Shown: one piece after another, positions 5,574-17,897 of the stretch
How positions within the stretch are numbered: the first letter of the stretch is position 1
Layout of the letters: the number at the start of each line of letters is the position of its first letter
NCBI GenBank assembly: GCA_020718205.1
Contig: DYSN01000015.1
Span: forward strand, 7,429 to 48,043
Reading direction: 5' to 3'
DNA: 40,615 bases
From: Draconibacterium orientale
GTDB taxonomy: Bacteria > Bacteroidota > Bacteroidia > Bacteroidales > UBA12170
Translations under genes and position numbers: made by a program
Notes under the pieces: generated by a model
Told to the model about the DNA's origin: nothing
Databases searched by the model: none
What the model saw: the letters and a program-made list of their open reading frames with translations, nothing else

Positions 5574-6001
5574 ACGATTCCATGATTAATATTTTGCTGG
5601 TTGAAGACGACGAAGTGGATATTATGAATGTGCAGCGGGCTTTTAAACGCAACCACATCGAAAATCCACTCTATATTGCCCACGATGGCGTTGAAGCTCT
5701 CGAAATGCTTTTGGGCATTGGCGGACGAGCCATCCCGTTTCCGCGAATCATACTGCTCGACATCAACATGCCCCGAATGGGTGGATTGGAGTTTTTGGAG
5801 AATATAAGAAAGAATGAGCTGCTTAAAAATATTTCGGTCTTTATTATGACCACATCGAACGAAGAGAACGACAAACTAAAAGCCTATAACCTGAATGTGG
5901 CCGGATATATTTTAAAACCCCTATCCATGGAAAGCTTTGTGGCTGCTGTAACAACCCTTCAAAGCTACTGGAAACTGTGCGAATTTCCTACAAACCATTA
6001 A
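5570..6001 (+). CDS. Single-domain CheY-like response regulator (Rcp1 type)
   Basis: A 143-residue receiver with no output domain. The acidic pair is in LLVEDDEVDIMNVQRAF, the phosphoacceptor is D64 in IILLDINMPRMGG, the switch Thr/Ser is in FIMTTSN and the conserved lysine is in GYILKPLSM. The VEDDEvDi...rAfkr start and the loop before the phosphoacceptor strand are typical of Rcp1-like regulators paired with PAS or phytochrome kinases. It is coupled to the upstream kinase by ATGA and followed after 3 bases by the hybrid kinase, so it probably carries phosphate between the two. Confidence 0.93.
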   Translation: MNDSMINILLVEDDEVDIMNVQRAFKRNHIENPLYIAHDGVEALEMLLGIGGRAIPFPRIILLDINMPRMGGLEFLENIRKNELLKNISVFIMTTSNEENDKLKAYNLNVAGYILKPLSMESFVAAVTTLQSYWKLCEFPTNH

Positions 6002-8026: not shown

Positions 8027-9889
8027 GATTGAAAATTCTGAATTCCCGCTTTTGTACTCCGGAATCATCATTTTCAAAAGGCCAACCAATCCAAAAACAT
8101 CCTGCGATGCCAGCAGTTTTTCCATTTGCTCCATTCCCAGGTCTACTTCATTCAACTCAAGTGCCGAAACCTGCGCCTTCAAAATCTTATTGTGATGGGT
8201 GGGTAAGGTAGATTCCTCGCTGGCCAACAGCTCCTCGTAAAGCTTCTCGCCCGGACGAAGGCCCGTAAATTCAATCTCGATATCTTTACCCAGTTGCAAT
8301 CCCGAAAGGCGAATCATTTGTTTGGCCAAATCAACAATTTTAACCGATTGACCCATGTCGAACACAAAAATCTCCCCCCCGTTTCCCATGCTTCCTGCTT
8401 CCAAAACCAGGCGACAAGCTTCGGGAATGGTCATAAAATAACGGGTAATATCGGGATGTGTAACAGTGACAGGACCACCCTTGGCAATTTGCTTTTCAAA
8501 GAGCGGAATCACAGAACCATTGGAGCCCAACACATTGCCAAACCGAGTGGTAATGAACTGTGTCGTGCCCTGATTGCTGCGCGATTGCACATAAATTTCG
8601 GCCATTCGCTTGCTGGCTCCCATCACATTGGTGGGATTCACCGCTTTGTCGGTAGAAATCATTACAAATTTATGTACACCGGTTCTGATGGCCAAATTAG
8701 CCAGATTTCTTGTTCCCAACACATTGACCCACACAGCTTCCAATGGATTTTTTTCCATCATGGGAACATGTTTGTAGGCCGCCGCGTGAAAAACATAATC
8801 GGGTCGAAAACGCTCAAAAATCACATTCATCCGCGCCTGATTGGTCACATCGGCCACAATATAATGGGTATTGAGATGTGGATACCGCCCGTTTTGCTGC
8901 AATTCCAAATGAAATAAAGGCGATTCGGCCTGATCGACCAAAAGCAGCTTTTGCGGCTGAAACCTACTCACCTGATTCACCAATTCGCTTCCGATACTTC
9001 CGGCAGCACCTGTTATAAGTACGGTTTTTCCACGCAAATCTACCTTCACCTGCTCCTCGTTCAACACTATTTCGTTGCGATTCAGCAAATCTTCAATTCT
9101 CACACTTCTTATTTGCTTCACGCTTAGCTCGCCATTAATCCAGGTAGTAACCGGCGGAACACTAAGCACCTCCACATCGGCTTCCATGCATAAATCTATG
9201 AGCTCCTGCTTTCGCTGAACAGGTAAGTTTTGAACTGCTAATATCAACCGTTCCACTTGTTTGTCTTTAAAAATCTGCAGTAAATCGGCCGATGGATAAA
9301 CAAGCAACCCCCCCATCCGTTTATTGGCCTTCTTAGCTGCATCGTCGATAAAACCAATGATTCTCACCTTGGAATGAGTATCGGTTTCAAGGGCTCTTTT
9401 AGTAATATCTCCGGCTTCTCCAGCGCCAAAAATCATGACGTTAACAAACCCGGAATGAGGCTTGGACAGCTCAATATAAGCTATTTTTACAAAAACCCTA
9501 TAACCCACCAAAAACATGAGCGAGGTAATGAACTCAATGATAATGATGCTATAAGGAATCAGAAAGCGCTCAAGCTCTGTTTCATACGATATGATATTCC
9601 CCAGCGAAAAAACGAAGCTTCCACCCAAAACAACCAGAAAAATACGGCTGGCATCGCGGGTGCTTGTGTACTGTATAATCCCCGAATAAAGCCTGAACAA
9701 TAAAAACCCCACGATGCGGGTGAATAAAATAATAACGAACGCCTGCCTGAAAACCTCAGTTTCGCTTTGTGGAATGTGAAAATTGAACCGCAACATATAA
9801 GCCGTAACGATACTAAACACAATAATCATTGTGTCTAAGAGAAAAACGCTCCACCGTGGAACCTGTATGTTTAATATCCGGTCTATCAT
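8000..9889 (-). CDS. CapD/FlaA1-type nucleotide-sugar 4,6-dehydratase (membrane)
   Basis: Four hydrophobic segments lie in the first ~130 residues, then a CoA-binding-like Rossmann domain (IFGAGEAGDITKRAL, ~residue 150) and an extended-SDR domain (VLITGAAGSIGSELV, ~residue 285) with the family signature STDKAVNPTNVMGASKR (~residue 410). This is the large WbpM/PglF/CapD family, which makes UDP-4-keto-6-deoxy-hexosamines for capsule, O-antigen or glycan synthesis; the exact substrate is not visible. The frame extends to a TTG at 9901, but a -7 box sits across that codon, so I choose the ATG at 9889 (MIDRILNIQVPRWSVFLLD). It stands alone, converging on the hybrid kinase with a 27-nt overlap. Confidence 0.92.
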   Translation of the reverse strand: MIDRILNIQVPRWSVFLLDTMIIVFSIVTAYMLRFNFHIPQSETEVFRQAFVIILFTRIVGFLLFRLYSGIIQYTSTRDASRIFLVVLGGSFVFSLGNIISYETELERFLIPYSIIIIEFITSLMFLVGYRVFVKIAYIELSKPHSGFVNVMIFGAGEAGDITKRALETDTHSKVRIIGFIDDAAKKANKRMGGLLVYPSADLLQIFKDKQVERLILAVQNLPVQRKQELIDLCMEADVEVLSVPPVTTWINGELSVKQIRSVRIEDLLNRNEIVLNEEQVKVDLRGKTVLITGAAGSIGSELVNQVSRFQPQKLLLVDQAESPLFHLELQQNGRYPHLNTHYIVADVTNQARMNVIFERFRPDYVFHAAAYKHVPMMEKNPLEAVWVNVLGTRNLANLAIRTGVHKFVMISTDKAVNPTNVMGASKRMAEIYVQSRSNQGTTQFITTRFGNVLGSNGSVIPLFEKQIAKGGPVTVTHPDITRYFMTIPEACRLVLEAGSMGNGGEIFVFDMGQSVKIVDLAKQMIRLSGLQLGKDIEIEFTGLRPGEKLYEELLASEESTLPTHHNKILKAQVSALELNEVDLGMEQMEKLLASQDVFGLVGLLKMMIPEYKSGNSEFSILDTVSPKR

Positions 9890-12527: not shown

Positions 12528-13775
12528 CTATTCAAGCAGCCATTTCCAGATGGGTTTTACTTTCAAAACCACACCATCATATACCAATTCACCTTCTTCT
12601 TCTTCAGTGAGTATGAGGCCCGTGGCGAGTTGATGAAATTTCACCGCATCTAAGAGACCACTAACTTCCCGTTCACGGGTTTTCACATTGTCTAAACTTG
12701 TAACTACCTGAATGGCTTCTGTAACCTTCCCTCTTTCGGTAATTAGAAAATCACATTCCTTTTGCTCCTTGTGATAAAAAAGCTCATGCCGCCGCCGTTT
12801 CAACTCAAGAAAAACCGTGTTTTCAAGAAATCTTCCCCTATCCTCCGAAAACCTAAAACTGATATTCTGCGACATAGCGTTATCAATAAAATAGATTCTT
12901 TTAGGATTTACCACCTGCTTCTTTAACGAGTAGTCAAACTTCGAAAGCTGAAAAACCAAATAGGTGTCTTCGAAATAAGAAACATAGTTCTTAACCGTCT
13001 GCCCATGTTTAACATTTAAAATGGCCGCCAGCTTTGAATAGCTGATGGGTTTCCCAACATTCCCCGCCAGATAAAATCCCAATTCACGCAATGCTACATC
13101 GTTTACAATTTTATTTCTGACCACAATATCTCTATATAATATACTGCTATACAACGATTTAAGCTGTTCAGCATTATTGGTTTCAAGATATTCGGGGAAT
13201 CCGCCTTCTGTCAGGAAATTTTGAAACGCCGACTGAAGTTTTGCTTTGCCAAGGGTGGTAAAAAAATCTTCTGAAACATACTCAATTTTTTTGAACGCCA
13301 GATATTCAACAAACGAGAATGGATATAAGGTTGCCTGTATATGTCTGCCCGTAAGATGGGTTCCCGGTTCTTTACTCAATAAATTGGCATTTGAACCCGT
13401 GATGTATATTTTGTTCCCTTCATTGTAAAGCCTTCGCACAAAATTTTCCCAGTTCTTAATGTTTTGAATCTGATCAAAATAGAAGTGATTCTGAACGCCA
13501 TAGAGTTCTACAAACGATTCATAAAGTAACTGAAAATCATCGACAGTAAAATGCAGCAACCTCTCATCATCAAAATTTAAATAGTAGTCATTTTGATTGT
13601 TTATTTGACGTATCTGATCGAGCAATGTCGACTTTCCACATCGCCGGATACCTGACAATACCACAATTTGCGGAAGATGGGATATGAAATCGAAATCAGT
13701 CCTGGGGATTAACCTCGTATTGGGCTTCTGCTTATTTTGCTGAACAATGATTTCTTTTAAAATATGTTTCTGCAT
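12528..13775 (-). CDS. AAA_14/DUF4143 family ATPase with altered Walker B
   Basis: A 415-residue protein. The AAA_14 domain has Walker A GIRRCGKST (residues 42-50), and the sensor-like strand YITGSNANLLSKE is followed by the conserved HLTGRH. The C-terminal DUF4143 region (from ~residue 210) has winged-helix (ISYSKLAAIL) and nuclease-like parts (ENTVFLELKRR, CDFLI, EAIQV). The Walker B motif reads FYFDQIQN (residues 98-105): the usual catalytic glutamate after the aspartate is Gln102 (codon CAG), so hydrolysis may be impaired. The family is widespread and of unknown function. The gene is monocistronic, behind a palindrome, a -7 box and a 33-bp tandem repeat. Confidence 0.9.
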   Translation of the reverse strand: MQKHILKEIIVQQNKQKPNTRLIPRTDFDFISHLPQIVVLSGIRRCGKSTLLDQIRQINNQNDYYLNFDDERLLHFTVDDFQLLYESFVELYGVQNHFYFDQIQNIKNWENFVRRLYNEGNKIYITGSNANLLSKEPGTHLTGRHIQATLYPFSFVEYLAFKKIEYVSEDFFTTLGKAKLQSAFQNFLTEGGFPEYLETNNAEQLKSLYSSILYRDIVVRNKIVNDVALRELGFYLAGNVGKPISYSKLAAILNVKHGQTVKNYVSYFEDTYLVFQLSKFDYSLKKQVVNPKRIYFIDNAMSQNISFRFSEDRGRFLENTVFLELKRRRHELFYHKEQKECDFLITERGKVTEAIQVVTSLDNVKTREREVSGLLDAVKFHQLATGLILTEEEEGELVYDGVVLKVKPIWKWLLE

Positions 13776-13783
13776 TTTTTAAA

Positions 13784-13800
13784 GTGTTGTTTTTCAACAC
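13784..13800. promoter_or_regulatory. Palindrome at the ATPase 5' end (candidate operator)
   Basis: GTGTTG, TTTTT, CAACAC form perfect 6-bp arms around a 5-base loop. It abuts the -7 box (13807-13800) and ends 8 bases before the ATG at 13775, so it covers the predicted transcription start. A role as operator or leader hairpin is inferred from position. Confidence 0.4.
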
Positions 13801-13807
13801 AAAAATA
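13800..13807 (-). promoter_or_regulatory. Bacteroidota -7 box for the ATPase gene
   Basis: TATTTTTG on the minus strand, 24 bases before the ATG at 13775 and touching the palindrome. Confidence 0.4.
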
Positions 13808-13819
13808 TATAAAATATCA

Positions 13820-13918
13820 ATAGTCTTCATTGGCAATGCAGAATTTTATCAAATAGTCTTCATTGGTAATGAATGGTTTTATAAAATAGTCTTCATTGGC
13901 AATGAATGAAATGACTAC
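13820..13918. repeat. 33-bp direct tandem repeat, three units
   Basis: Units start at 13820, 13853 and 13886, exactly 33 bases apart. Each begins with the same 19-base core (ATAGTCTTCATTGG, C or T, AATG), which contains the inverted repeat TTCATT/AATGAA in units 2 and 3. Units 1 and 2 also share the TTTTAT part of the second half; unit 3 diverges after the core. It lies directly upstream of the ATPase promoter. Confidence 0.85.
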
Positions 13919-14149: not shown

Positions 14150-14494
14150 ATGTTGACAATAGAAAACCTGCTCTTAAAACTCGATGCCACTCTGTTCACT
14201 TGTGACCCAAAAGCCATCATTCCCTCAGTTGCCTTTGCTTCTGATCTCATGAGCGATGTGCTCACACTCGAAAACCAAACGCCGCTTCTCATCACCGGAC
14301 TGGCCAATGTGCAATGCATCAGAACCGCCGAAATGGCCGACATCAGCATGATAGTGGTGGCTCGTGGCAAACAAATTACCCCCGAAATGACTCATATGGC
14401 CGAATCTTGCGGCATCAACTTGCTGTAATCCCCATTTTCCATTTTCAGAATCTGCGGAATTCTTTAAAACGAAGGAATTAAACCAATATACTAG
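14150..14494 (+). pseudogene. DRTGG-domain protein, first copy (two in-frame stops)
   Basis: The open part (14150-14428, 92 residues) is a DRTGG/HPr-kinase-N-like domain: ASDLMSDVL, then LANVQCIRTAEMADISMIVV and ITPEMTHMAESCGINLL. It stops at TAA 14426-14428, but the same frame continues with SPFSIFRICGIL, a second TAA at 14465-14467, then NEGIKPIY and TAG at 14492. Read through, this is the family C-terminus (F-x-x-CGILY-x-x-G pattern, with the second TAA at the tyrosine position) and gives ~114 residues, the expected length. It is the first gene of the cluster, with a -7 box upstream. A shortened functional protein is possible but less likely given the state of its neighbours. Confidence 0.7.
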
Positions 14495-14497
14495 GCC

Positions 14498-14965
14498 ATG
14501 GAAATGTACTAGCTGAATTATAAAATCATCGATGGCGATTTCAGCAATGCCGGAAATGCCGGCAGCGATATTAAAAAAAACCTGAAAATGCCGGGTTTGG
14601 ACCCTGCATTTATCAAGCGGGTTGTGGTTTCCATTTACGAAGCGGAAGTGAATATGATTGCTCATGCCAACGGGGGGAATATTGTTGTTACAGTGGACGA
14701 AGAAAAAATAGTGGCCGTTTTCAACGATGTGGATCCTGGTATTCCCGATATCAACTTAGCCATGCAGAAGGGTTTCTCAACGGCCTCCGACGAGGTTCGC
14801 CAACCGGGATTTGGAGCCGCAATGGGTCTTCCGAATATTCAAAAAAATTCGGATAAATTATTGATTACCACCGAAGTTGGGAAAGAAACGCAGGTAACCA
14901 TCATCTCTTATTTTACAAACCAAACTGATGAACTATGCCAGCCGACCCCTTTTTTCATGCCATAG
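14498..14965 (+). pseudogene. Anti-sigma-factor-like ATPase (RsbW/SpoIIAB type), in-frame stop and altered glycine boxes
   Basis: From ATG 14498 the frame reads MEMY, TAG (14510-14512), then LNYKIIDGDFSNAGNAGSDI and on into a GHKL ATPase. The family N-terminus (Y-x-I-x-GGDF-x-x-AG) lies after the stop, so translation from the natural start is blocked; the first ATG after it (14588) would remove ~30 residues. The N box is present (YEAEVNMIAHANGG). The G1 box reads DVDPGIPD where the family has D-x-GPGIPD, and the G2 loop reads GFGAAMGLPN where GFGAGMGLPN is usual. Both lost glycines contact nucleotide. The 3' end overlaps the next gene by 31 nt. Confidence 0.75.
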
Positions 14966-16287
14966 CCATTGACGAAGACATTTGTATTGGTTGCTCACAT
15001 TGCGTAAAAGCCTGCCCCACAGAAGCCTTGAGAGTTTGGAACGGGAAAGCCACCCTCGACGAAACCAAATGTGTGGATTGTGGCGATTGCTACAGAGTTT
15101 GTCCGGTAAAAGCCATTTATGTGGCTGAGAAAAAAAAACAAATCATCTCGCCCACCCATTGGAATGTGGCACTGGTTCCCGCTGTTTTTTTCGGTCAATT
15201 TCACTATGGAAAAAGCCGAAACTCCATATGCGATGCTATTTAGAAAGCTGGATTTCAACAAATTGTGGAAGTGGAATAAAGTGTGGAAGCGCTATCATCA
15301 GAAATTGAAATGTACCTGAAGCAGCATCAGGGTCAGAAGAATATTTCGTCGTATTGTCCTGCTGTTATCCGGCTCTTCCAAACCCGCTATCCTGAACTCA
15401 TTCCCACCCTTGTACATCTAAAATCGCCAGTGGAAATTACTGCTCAGGCCATTTGGCGCGATCTTCAGAAAGAAAAAGCACCCATACAGGTGCGGATATT
15501 TTACGTTACTCCCTGCGCCGTAAAATTGGTCGCCATACAAAATCAGACGAAATCTGAGAATTTTCACATTTCGGGAACCATTAACATGAATACTTTCTAC
15601 AACTTAATCAATGGCATTCTAAAGCGCAACGAAGCAAACCCCACTCACAGTTGTGAAGATGGTTTGAGTGCAAAAAGCGTTGGCCGGAGTCTTAGGGGTG
15701 GCGAAGGAAATCACTTGCCATCAACCAGCCTCAGCATCGATGGGATGCAGCATTGTATTGAGTTTCTTGACAATATGGATAAGGAAAATTTCAGAGAAAT
15801 AGATTTTCTCGAAATGAAAGCCTGCGATCAGGGTTGCGCCGGTGGAATTCTCAATCCACAAAACCGCTTTCTAGGTGTCGAAAGTATGAAAAAACGCATA
15901 ATAGCCAATGAGCATCAGAATAAACCGTTTCACGATGTAATCTTTCAAAAAAGCGATTTCGAATGACCCCCAATCCCCGATAAATCGGTGTTAACACTGG
16001 ATAAAAATCCAGCCATATCGCTGAAAATGATGAACAAAACCCAGCGGCTCATGTGCTATTTACCTGGTTTTGATTGTGGTGCCTGCGGTGCTCCAACCTG
16101 CAAATCGCTGGCCGAAGATGTGGCCAAGGGAAATGCCATTTTATCGCATTGCGTTTTTATGCAGCGACAAATGGAAAAACACCACAGCCTGAGTCCGGAA
16201 CATGCGTTCAACTTTATAGAAAGCATTTGGGGGAAAGACAGATTAGATAAAAAATGTGATAAAAAAGGAGCCATAAATGACTATTAA
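14935..16287 (+). pseudogene. [FeFe]-hydrogenase-like iron-sulfur protein (hydrogenase-cluster accessory), three in-frame stops
   Basis: One frame of 451 codons is interrupted by TAG 15241, TAA 15277 and TGA 15964 without net loss of frame. Segment 1 has two 4Fe-4S motifs (CIGCSHCVKACP, CVDCGDCYRVCP) and VALVPAVFFGQF. Segment 2 has the Fe-hydrogenase C-terminal-domain landmarks ISSYCPAVIRLF, YVTPCAVKL and ACDQGCAGGIL. Segment 3 has a closing Fe-S motif LPGFDCGACGAPTCKSLAED. Read through, length and domain order match the accessory protein encoded in [FeFe]-hydrogenase operons of Clostridia and relatives; it is not the catalytic HydA. It overlaps the second DRTGG gene by 11 nt. Separate translation of the pieces is the alternative but would split the domain. 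Confidence 0.85.
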
Positions 16288-16614
16288 TGAACTAGTAAAA
16301 GAGTTAAAGCTGACAGTTTTTGCAGGTGAGCAGGGGCTGAATAAAAATATTTCTTCGGCCTATTGTTCCGACCTTTTGAGCGATGTGATGGTTAATGCTC
16401 AGGAAAACAATATCCGGATTACGCTTCAAACCCACAAAAATGCTGTGGCAGTAGCTGTTCTCAAGGACTTGTCGGGCCAAATACTGGCAACAATCACCAG
16501 CCCAATGCCGACGCCATAGAAGCTGCCAACGAAGAAGGAATTCCCCTCTTAGGCACCGAAAAATCTACCTTCGAAATCTGCGGTATACTCTACCCCTTAC
16601 TGTGGAACAAATAA
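16277..16614 (+). pseudogene. DRTGG-domain protein, second copy (frameshifted)
   Basis: The first ~70 codons encode a DRTGG domain (MTINELVKELKLTVFAGEQG, then YCSDLLSDVMVNAQ and HKNAVAVAVLKDLSGQIL). Near 16481-16492 the family frame moves: the original frame runs to TAG at 16517, while the expected C-terminus (NNHQPNADAIEAANEEGIPL, then LGTEKSTFEICGILY and TAA 16612) is in another frame. Adding one base in the CTGGCAACAATC stretch joins the halves into a 112-residue protein of normal family length. This is a one-base deletion. It overlaps the hydrogenase-like gene upstream and the PHP gene downstream. Confidence 0.8.
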
Positions 16615-17355
16615 AAATATACAAAGCCGGTTTACATATTCACACCGTCCTTTCGCCCTGTGGCGATCCGGACATCAGCCCCATTAAACTCGTTGAACAG
16701 GCCAAAAAAGCGGGATTAGACATCATAGGCATCACCGACCATAATTCTACCAAACATGCCTTGCTGACCCGGAGAATAGCAGCCAGAGAAAATATTTTTG
16801 TTCTTTGTGGTGCCGAAATAACTACCAAAGAAGAGGTTCATGTACTTTGTTTTATGCCCGACAAAAAAAAGTTTGTCACTTCTTCAGGATTATATCGACA
16901 CCTACCTCATAAAAGTAGAAAACAATATAAAACTATTTGGGGAACAGCTCATTGTAAATAAAGACGAAGAAATTCTTGCGAAGGAATATTATCTTCTCAT
17001 CAATGCCATTGACCAGGATATCAATCAAATCAGCGATTTTGTGCACGGTCATCAGGGGATTTTTATTCCGGCTCACATCGACAGACCCGCTTTTAGTCTG
17101 CTAGGTCAGCTGTGTTTTATTCCCCCCGATTTAATTTGCGATGGTTTTGAGCTGTGGAAAACCGATTCTAACGAGATGACAACTCAATTCCCCTACCTGA
17201 AATACAAATCCTTTATTCGCTCTTCCGATGCACATTTCATCAACGATATTGGCACCAAAAGCACTGAATTTCTCCTGAAAGAACCAAGTTTCTACGAGAT
17301 AAAATTAGCATTACACCAGCAAATGGGCCGAAGCTGCAAAATAGCCGAATCATGA
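16602..17355 (+). pseudogene. PHP-domain phosphoesterase (frameshifted in an A8 run)
   Basis: The 5' frame from GTG 16602 gives the PHP N-terminus (GLHIHTVLSPCGDPD, IIGITDHNS, CGAEITTKEEVHVLCFMPD). At AAAAAAAA (16863-16870) the family frame shifts; the rest (SLSLLQDYIDTYLIKVENN, then FIPAHIDRP, RSSDAHF, and the end at 17355) is in a second frame. Seven A instead of eight would give a continuous 250-residue protein. Metal-site histidines and aspartates (HIH, DH, SDAH) are otherwise present. An eight-A run could allow polymerase or ribosome slippage, so partial function is possible. Its end overlaps the next ATG (ATGA). Confidence 0.8.
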
Positions 17356-17897
17356 AAGACCTTTCGCTCCATATTCTCGATATTGCCCACAACAGCATCA
17401 GCGCCAAAGCCACTCTGATTCACATTAAAGTACTGATTAAAAGCAGTTCCGACCAATTAGTTATTTCCATTCAGGACAACGGAAGCGGCATGATTCAAGA
17501 AAAAGTGAGAGCCATCACCGACCCATTCTTTACCACGCGCACCACGCGAAAAGTGGGACCGGGAATTCCATTGCTATTACAAAAAGCCGAGGAATGTGGC
17601 GGAGCTTTGCTGGTGGAATCGGAATTGGGGAAAGGCACTACCATAAAAGCCAATTTTCAGCTCAGCCACATCGATCTTCCGGAATTGGGTAATTTGGCGG
17701 GAGTTATATCGGGACTTTGTTGTTCTTATCATCAAATACAATTTATCTTCGAGTTTGAAGAAGGAGAAAATGAATTTCGCTTCGACAACTCTGAAATTGT
17801 AGATGCTTTGGGGAATGTTCCAATAAATACCCCCGAAGTTGAAATTTTCATCCACGAAATGATTCACAAAAATATGGAAGCGGGAAAAAATGAATAA
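17352..17897 (+). CDS. Histidine-kinase-like ATPase of the hydrogenase cluster (open frame, altered G2 box)
   Basis: A 181-residue GHKL ATPase without a HisKA domain. It starts MKDLSLHILDIAHNSISA (N box) and has IQDNGSGM (G1), DPFFTTRTTRKVGPGIPLL (lid and G2), ELGKGTT and QLSHIDLPELG. Its homologues in [FeFe]-hydrogenase operons read RKVGLGIPLL; here the leucine is proline (CCG at the expected CTG), inside the nucleotide-binding loop. The frame is otherwise complete and is coupled to the PHP gene by ATGA. In related operons nuoE, nuoF and hydA follow; here the next gene is an unrelated glycosyltransferase on the other strand. It may be the last member of the cluster still open by chance. Confidence 0.8.
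   Translation: MKDLSLHILDIAHNSISAKATLIHIKVLIKSSSDQLVISIQDNGSGMIQEKVRAITDPFFTTRTTRKVGPGIPLLLQKAEECGGALLVESELGKGTTIKANFQLSHIDLPELGNLAGVISGLCCSYHQIQFIFEFEEGENEFRFDNSEIVDALGNVPINTPEVEIFIHEMIHKNMEAGKNE

Follow-up and report, generated by a model that had tools for sequence, protein, structure and literature searches.

We conclude, with a probability of about 0.9, that positions 14150–17897 of the analysed DNA hold a recently pseudogenised six-gene signalling or accessory module around a group D [FeFe]-hydrogenase homologue, parted by rearrangement from a HydBAC hydrogenase that is itself intact. The window, as we call the whole stretch of 40,615 nucleotides, is part of contig C121 of a 4.1-Mb MAG (G000) of an uncultured Bacteroidales-like bacterium, which comprises 393 contigs and has an estimated contamination of 6.2%. 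The six genes lie on the forward strand in the order DRTGG, anti-sigma-like ATPase, group D homologue, DRTGG, PHP and GHKL, and of ten genomes from the same genus, G009 and G002 have all six open in the same order and provide the intact references. Pfam searches of the frames, with stops read as X, returned HATPase, Fe-hydrogenase C-terminal, ferredoxin, FeS, PHP and GHKL ATPase domains; together with the same-genus orthologues, they bear out the six identities proposed in a preliminary description of this DNA. The DRTGG profile scores weakly for genes 1 and 4 (E-values of 7e-4 and 3e-5 in the intact orthologues, under the gathering score), and these are nevertheless the same genes as the DRTGG-type genes of the relatives.

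Measured against the two same-genus species, the cluster is interrupted by six internal stops and by two indels of one base each; in addition, one stop codon and one start codon have been lost. Only gene 6, the GHKL ATPase, is still open. Gene 1 (14150–14494, + strand), a DRTGG-type relic, has internal TAA codons at 14426 and 14465; read through both, it is 58.8% identical in amino acids to the full 114 residues of the intact G009 orthologue (tblastn). Gene 2 (14498–14965, +), an RsbW/SpoIIAB-like HATPase relic, is interrupted by TAG 14510 and matches G009 at 69% identity over 139 aa (tblastn; Pfam HATPase_c); it reads DVDPG where relatives have DVGPG, and the intact orthologue matches the SpoIIAB model. 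DNA alignment reveals a further lesion in gene 2, the loss of its own stop, which extends the frame to 14965, into gene 3. The group D/M2e-like (HydS-type) homologue itself, gene 3 (14935–16287, +), contains TAG 15241, TAA 15277 and TGA 15964, and retains 64% identity over 446 aa (tblastn) with Fe_hyd_lg_C, two [4Fe-4S] and FeS domains. Its Fe–S and H-cluster cysteines are still in place, which is compatible with recent decay but does not count as evidence of it. Among the 56 genomes of the order that carry gene 3, G000 alone has each kind of stop inside the match; the few single stops reported in other genomes lie, where checked, at the end of the gene. Gene 4 (16277–16614, +), the second DRTGG-type relic, has a one-base loss at about 16488 and a tblastn match split over two frames (16277–16546 and 16489–16602). 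Gene 5 (16602–17355, +), a PHP-domain phosphoesterase relic, has a one-base gain at about 16870, has lost its original ATG and is likewise split by tblastn (16620–16871 and 16849–17343).

Genes 1 to 5 are confirmed as recent pseudogenes. All six stops listed in the preliminary description are present at the positions it gave, and the one-base loss that it had placed near 16481–16492 and the extra A near 16863–16870 were recovered by DNA alignment with two same-genus genomes. Alignment of the broken frames to intact homologues upheld these lesions and added the stop loss of gene 2 and the ATG loss of gene 5; the preliminary view that five of the six genes are decayed stands against the G009 and G002 orthologues, and neither sister species has any of the stops. 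Eight lesions in 3.75 kb of the 40.6-kb contig cluster beyond chance ((3748/40615)^8 = 5e-9), and the other long frames of the contig are open. Gene order and overlaps had both been described as still perfect. The order is that of G009 and G002, but the overlaps are not perfect: in the relatives 8 bp separate gene 2 from gene 3, whereas the two overlap by 31 bp here because gene 2 lost its own stop, and this overlap is not ancestral.

Selection on the module has relaxed in the G000 lineage. Of 399 module codons for which five order-level outgroups agree, 42 differ in G000 alone and 19 in G009 alone (p 0.004), whereas 818 such codons of HydBAC, taken as a control, gave 15 changes against 15. 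The module's excess amounts to about 6% of conserved codons, or by hand arithmetic about 2.6% neutral change per site, and six stops arising from random substitutions would need about 4–6% neutral divergence. The two estimates are of the same order and both small, in line with the earlier view that the loss was recent. HydA differs between G000 and G009 at 25% of nucleotides; the neutral-change estimates fall far under this value, and the module was therefore constrained during most of the lineage's history. When a codon model gave G000 its own omega, to obtain branch dN/dS, synonymous sites on the branches proved saturated.

The six genes had been said to decay as a unit, and this holds for genes 1 to 5; gene 6 (17352–17897, +) is an open frame of 181 aa with 62.9% identity to G009. 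The alternative that survives best, although we regard it as unlikely, is that five genes are dead and the GHKL ATPase has been retained on its own as a partner of HydBAC. It is the sole open gene; in about two dozen Clostridia-type loci it is separate from the other five and lies between HydC and HydB; within the order it accompanies this HydA slightly more often than the group D gene does (57/73 against 52/73); and its conserved-site changes (6 against 4–6) reveal no detectable excess. On the other side, we estimate a roughly even chance that 175 codons would remain open at about 3–5% neutral divergence, GPG replaces the GLG, GMG or GIG of relatives in the ATP-binding region, and G008, of the same genus, retains HydBAC and has no GHKL orthologue. 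A partial knock-out of this kind, with the GHKL gene kept for the relocated HydBAC, is in our judgement quite improbable; if true, it would divide the module in two, a sensory part that can be dispensed with and a GHKL part coupled to the hydrogenase.

The neighbourhood points to a rearrangement as the event that separated module and hydrogenase. Directly downstream of HydB–HydA–HydC, G009 and G002 have the six genes, with ispF on the far side and, in G009, PorV and a C25 peptidase gene after it. The far flank of the window (17943–40258), containing ispF, PorV, C25 peptidase, 1267-aa, 340-aa, 498-aa, 427-aa, 357-aa and 1180-aa genes, is broadly colinear with G009 contig 5 by synteny and Pfam content, and this colinearity reaches the 1180-aa oxidoreductase gene. 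On the near side, the place expected for HydBAC is taken by genes for an AAA_14/DUF4143 ATPase (12528–13775, – strand), NusB and GcvT. The ATPase gene adjoins the breakpoint proposed from synteny at 13776–13819, upstream of which the sister species have HydBAC. Three 33-nt tandem repeats with the dyad TTCATT-N3-AATGAA follow at 13819–13917 (+), the only place in G000 where the 33-nt repeat occurs. The spacer between HydC and the module in G002 holds the dyad repeat twice at an equal 33-nt spacing (L048, about 8583–8632); a search upstream of the DRTGG gene in order-level relatives found the dyad only in G002 and the window. The repeats mark the old HydC-to-module spacer, and they are a candidate control site; because the repeat is common to this spacer in G002, the break most likely fell between 13776 and 13819. 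Each end of the break has an AAA_14 ATPase gene nearby (window 12528–13775 and L005 16768–17958). Recombination between the two was considered as a cause of the rearrangement and rejected: they have 24% amino-acid identity over 130 aa, and no common DNA was found.

The preliminary description had noted that no hydrogenase subunit follows the cluster, hinting that hydrogenase function was lost too. This did not hold: G000 has two intact HydBAC sets, on contigs C187 and C140, as well as HydF. The C187 set is orthologous to the module-adjacent set of G009 (HydA 87.5%, HydB 92% and HydC 85% amino-acid identity), and a search of G000 for a second copy of the module found none. Absence of a hydrogenase as the cause of decay is rejected, given that intact HydBAC is present. 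It could be argued that the organism of the window lost HydBAC and that the set on C187 stems from a different species contaminating the bin, a reading for which an estimated contamination of 6.2% leaves room, but we consider this very unlikely. The tetranucleotide profiles of C187 and C140 match that of the window (r 0.98 and 0.96), against about 0.5–0.8 for other species of the genus, which therefore makes contamination unlikely. Trees of C187 proteins (HydA and a 979-aa protein) and of the window's 1180-aa protein agree in placing G000 basal to G009 and G002, with one orthologue each found in G000 for the tree proteins. Contig C187, which carries the relocated hydrogenase, also carries a second likely pseudogene, KilA-N-type frames that seem to be disrupted by shifts of frame and by a stop within the frame (L006 13964–15200).

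Errors of assembly or sequencing that make an intact cluster look broken are highly improbable, as the preliminary description had also judged. The MAG is fragmented into its 393 contigs and one of the indels adjoins a run of eight A, but six of the eight main lesions are substitutions to stops, in addition to the lost stop and lost start, 37 kb of flanks have no lesion that we could see, and the excess of conserved-residue changes is found in the module and not in HydBAC. Recoding, in which stop readthrough and programmed shifts would still yield the proteins, is scarcely credible: the frames past each stop are still 51–69% identical to relatives, but all three stop codons and both directions of indel are involved, none of them in the sister species, start and stop signals are lost too and constraint is relaxed.

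Gene 3 and its intact orthologues have two N-terminal [4Fe-4S] motifs and an H-domain (a Pfam Fer4 pair and Fe_hyd_lg_C), and a C-terminal Cx2Cx4Cx16C motif that reads CGACGAPTCKSLAEDVAKGNAILSHC in G009, G002 and the relic; no Pfam match to a PAS domain was obtained in gene 3 or the intact orthologues. The H-cluster cysteines are kept and Cys299 is replaced (SSFCP/SSYCP, TPC, KACxxxC). Group D (M2e) enzymes are laid out in this way, with two N-terminal clusters, an H-domain in which C299 is replaced, a C-terminal Cx2Cx4Cx16C and no PAS domain (PMC8163306). By these motifs, gene 3 classifies as a group D (M2e, HydS-like) [FeFe]-hydrogenase homologue. It resembles TamHydS of group D (PMC8163306, PMC13104023) in its two N-terminal [4Fe-4S] motifs, H-domain and C-terminal Cx2Cx4Cx16C, in having no PAS domain and a residue other than Cys at the proton-relay Cys299 position, and in adjoining a histidine kinase-like ATPase gene with a group A hydrogenase nearby. 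Unlike TamHydS, it belongs to a set of six linked genes (with two DRTGG genes, PHP and GHKL besides), has no AraC regulator visible beside it, has T and K as the residues before PC and AC, and is a pseudogene in G000. Group C (M2f) HydS proteins such as TmHydS resemble gene 3 in their Fe–S and H-domain layout and C-terminal FeS motif but have a PAS domain (PMC8163306). The role of group D [FeFe]-hydrogenases in the cell has only been proposed (PMC8163306, PMC13104023). Our text searches of a literature library found no paper describing this six-gene module with its DRTGG and PHP genes, and nothing relevant on DRTGG in connection with hydrogenase.

Across the order (Bacteroidales by named matches), the module flanks HydBAC in many families, and other arrangements occur in Clostridia and a few other groups. 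In a survey of 197 genomes of the order besides G000, this HydA accompanied the group D gene in 52 of 55 genomes and accompanied GHKL in 57 of 61, whereas HydA occurred without the group D gene in 21 of 73 and without GHKL in 16 of 73, counts that are based on E-value cut-offs and uncorrected for shared ancestry. The group D gene is thus nearly always found with HydBAC, and HydBAC often without it, so the module is an optional accessory; this one-way dependence suggests an accessory rather than a maturation role. In the same genus, G008 has HydBAC and no module, a loss that, if not a gap in the MAG, is independent of that in G000, because the tree groups G008 with G009 and G002; G001 and G006 have only distant GHKL proteins (25–27%). 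Several Bacteroidales loci (L052, L122, L130 and L160) have a module of five genes, from which the group D hydrogenase gene is missing. Clostridia-type loci (L134, L139, L144, L149, L164, L171, L188 and others) have GHKL between HydC and HydB, with the remaining five genes elsewhere or on the opposite strand. The relatives of G000 share their neighbourhood with the HydABC-type group A loci of Bacteroidales and Clostridia to which accessory genes are linked; G000 differs in that its accessory genes are dead and its hydrogenase is kept but physically apart.

Under the rearrangement model that we favour, the module would have adjoined HydBAC in the ancestor. A rearrangement in the G000 lineage would have carried HydBAC to a different genomic location, where it is still intact, with the module left next to ispF and PorV; selection on the module would have lapsed, and five of its six genes would have gained stops, indels and losses of start or stop. 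This order of events is one that we infer, and separation followed by lapse or the reverse would both fit. Going by its domains and linkage, the most likely role of the intact module is that of an H2 or redox sensing input that controls HydBAC. Its HydS-like protein would read H2 or electron pressure as the input to a phospho-switch, and the signal would be relayed to HydBAC control through the two ATPases, RsbW-like and GHKL, together with the DRTGG and PHP proteins. The gene decay is of a known, ordinary kind, and its value is the modest one of a natural knock-out in which a module of little-understood function has been lost: this lineage lost the module recently and kept HydBAC while its sisters keep both, which offers a comparison for the module's effect on the hydrogenase. 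HydS-like genes also occur outside the module. In G009, positions 5849–10492 of L099 (contig C28) hold two in tandem, flanking a 404-aa gene, and two lie close together in G002; G000 retains one, longer, separate and intact, on contig C226 beside a Rex-like gene.
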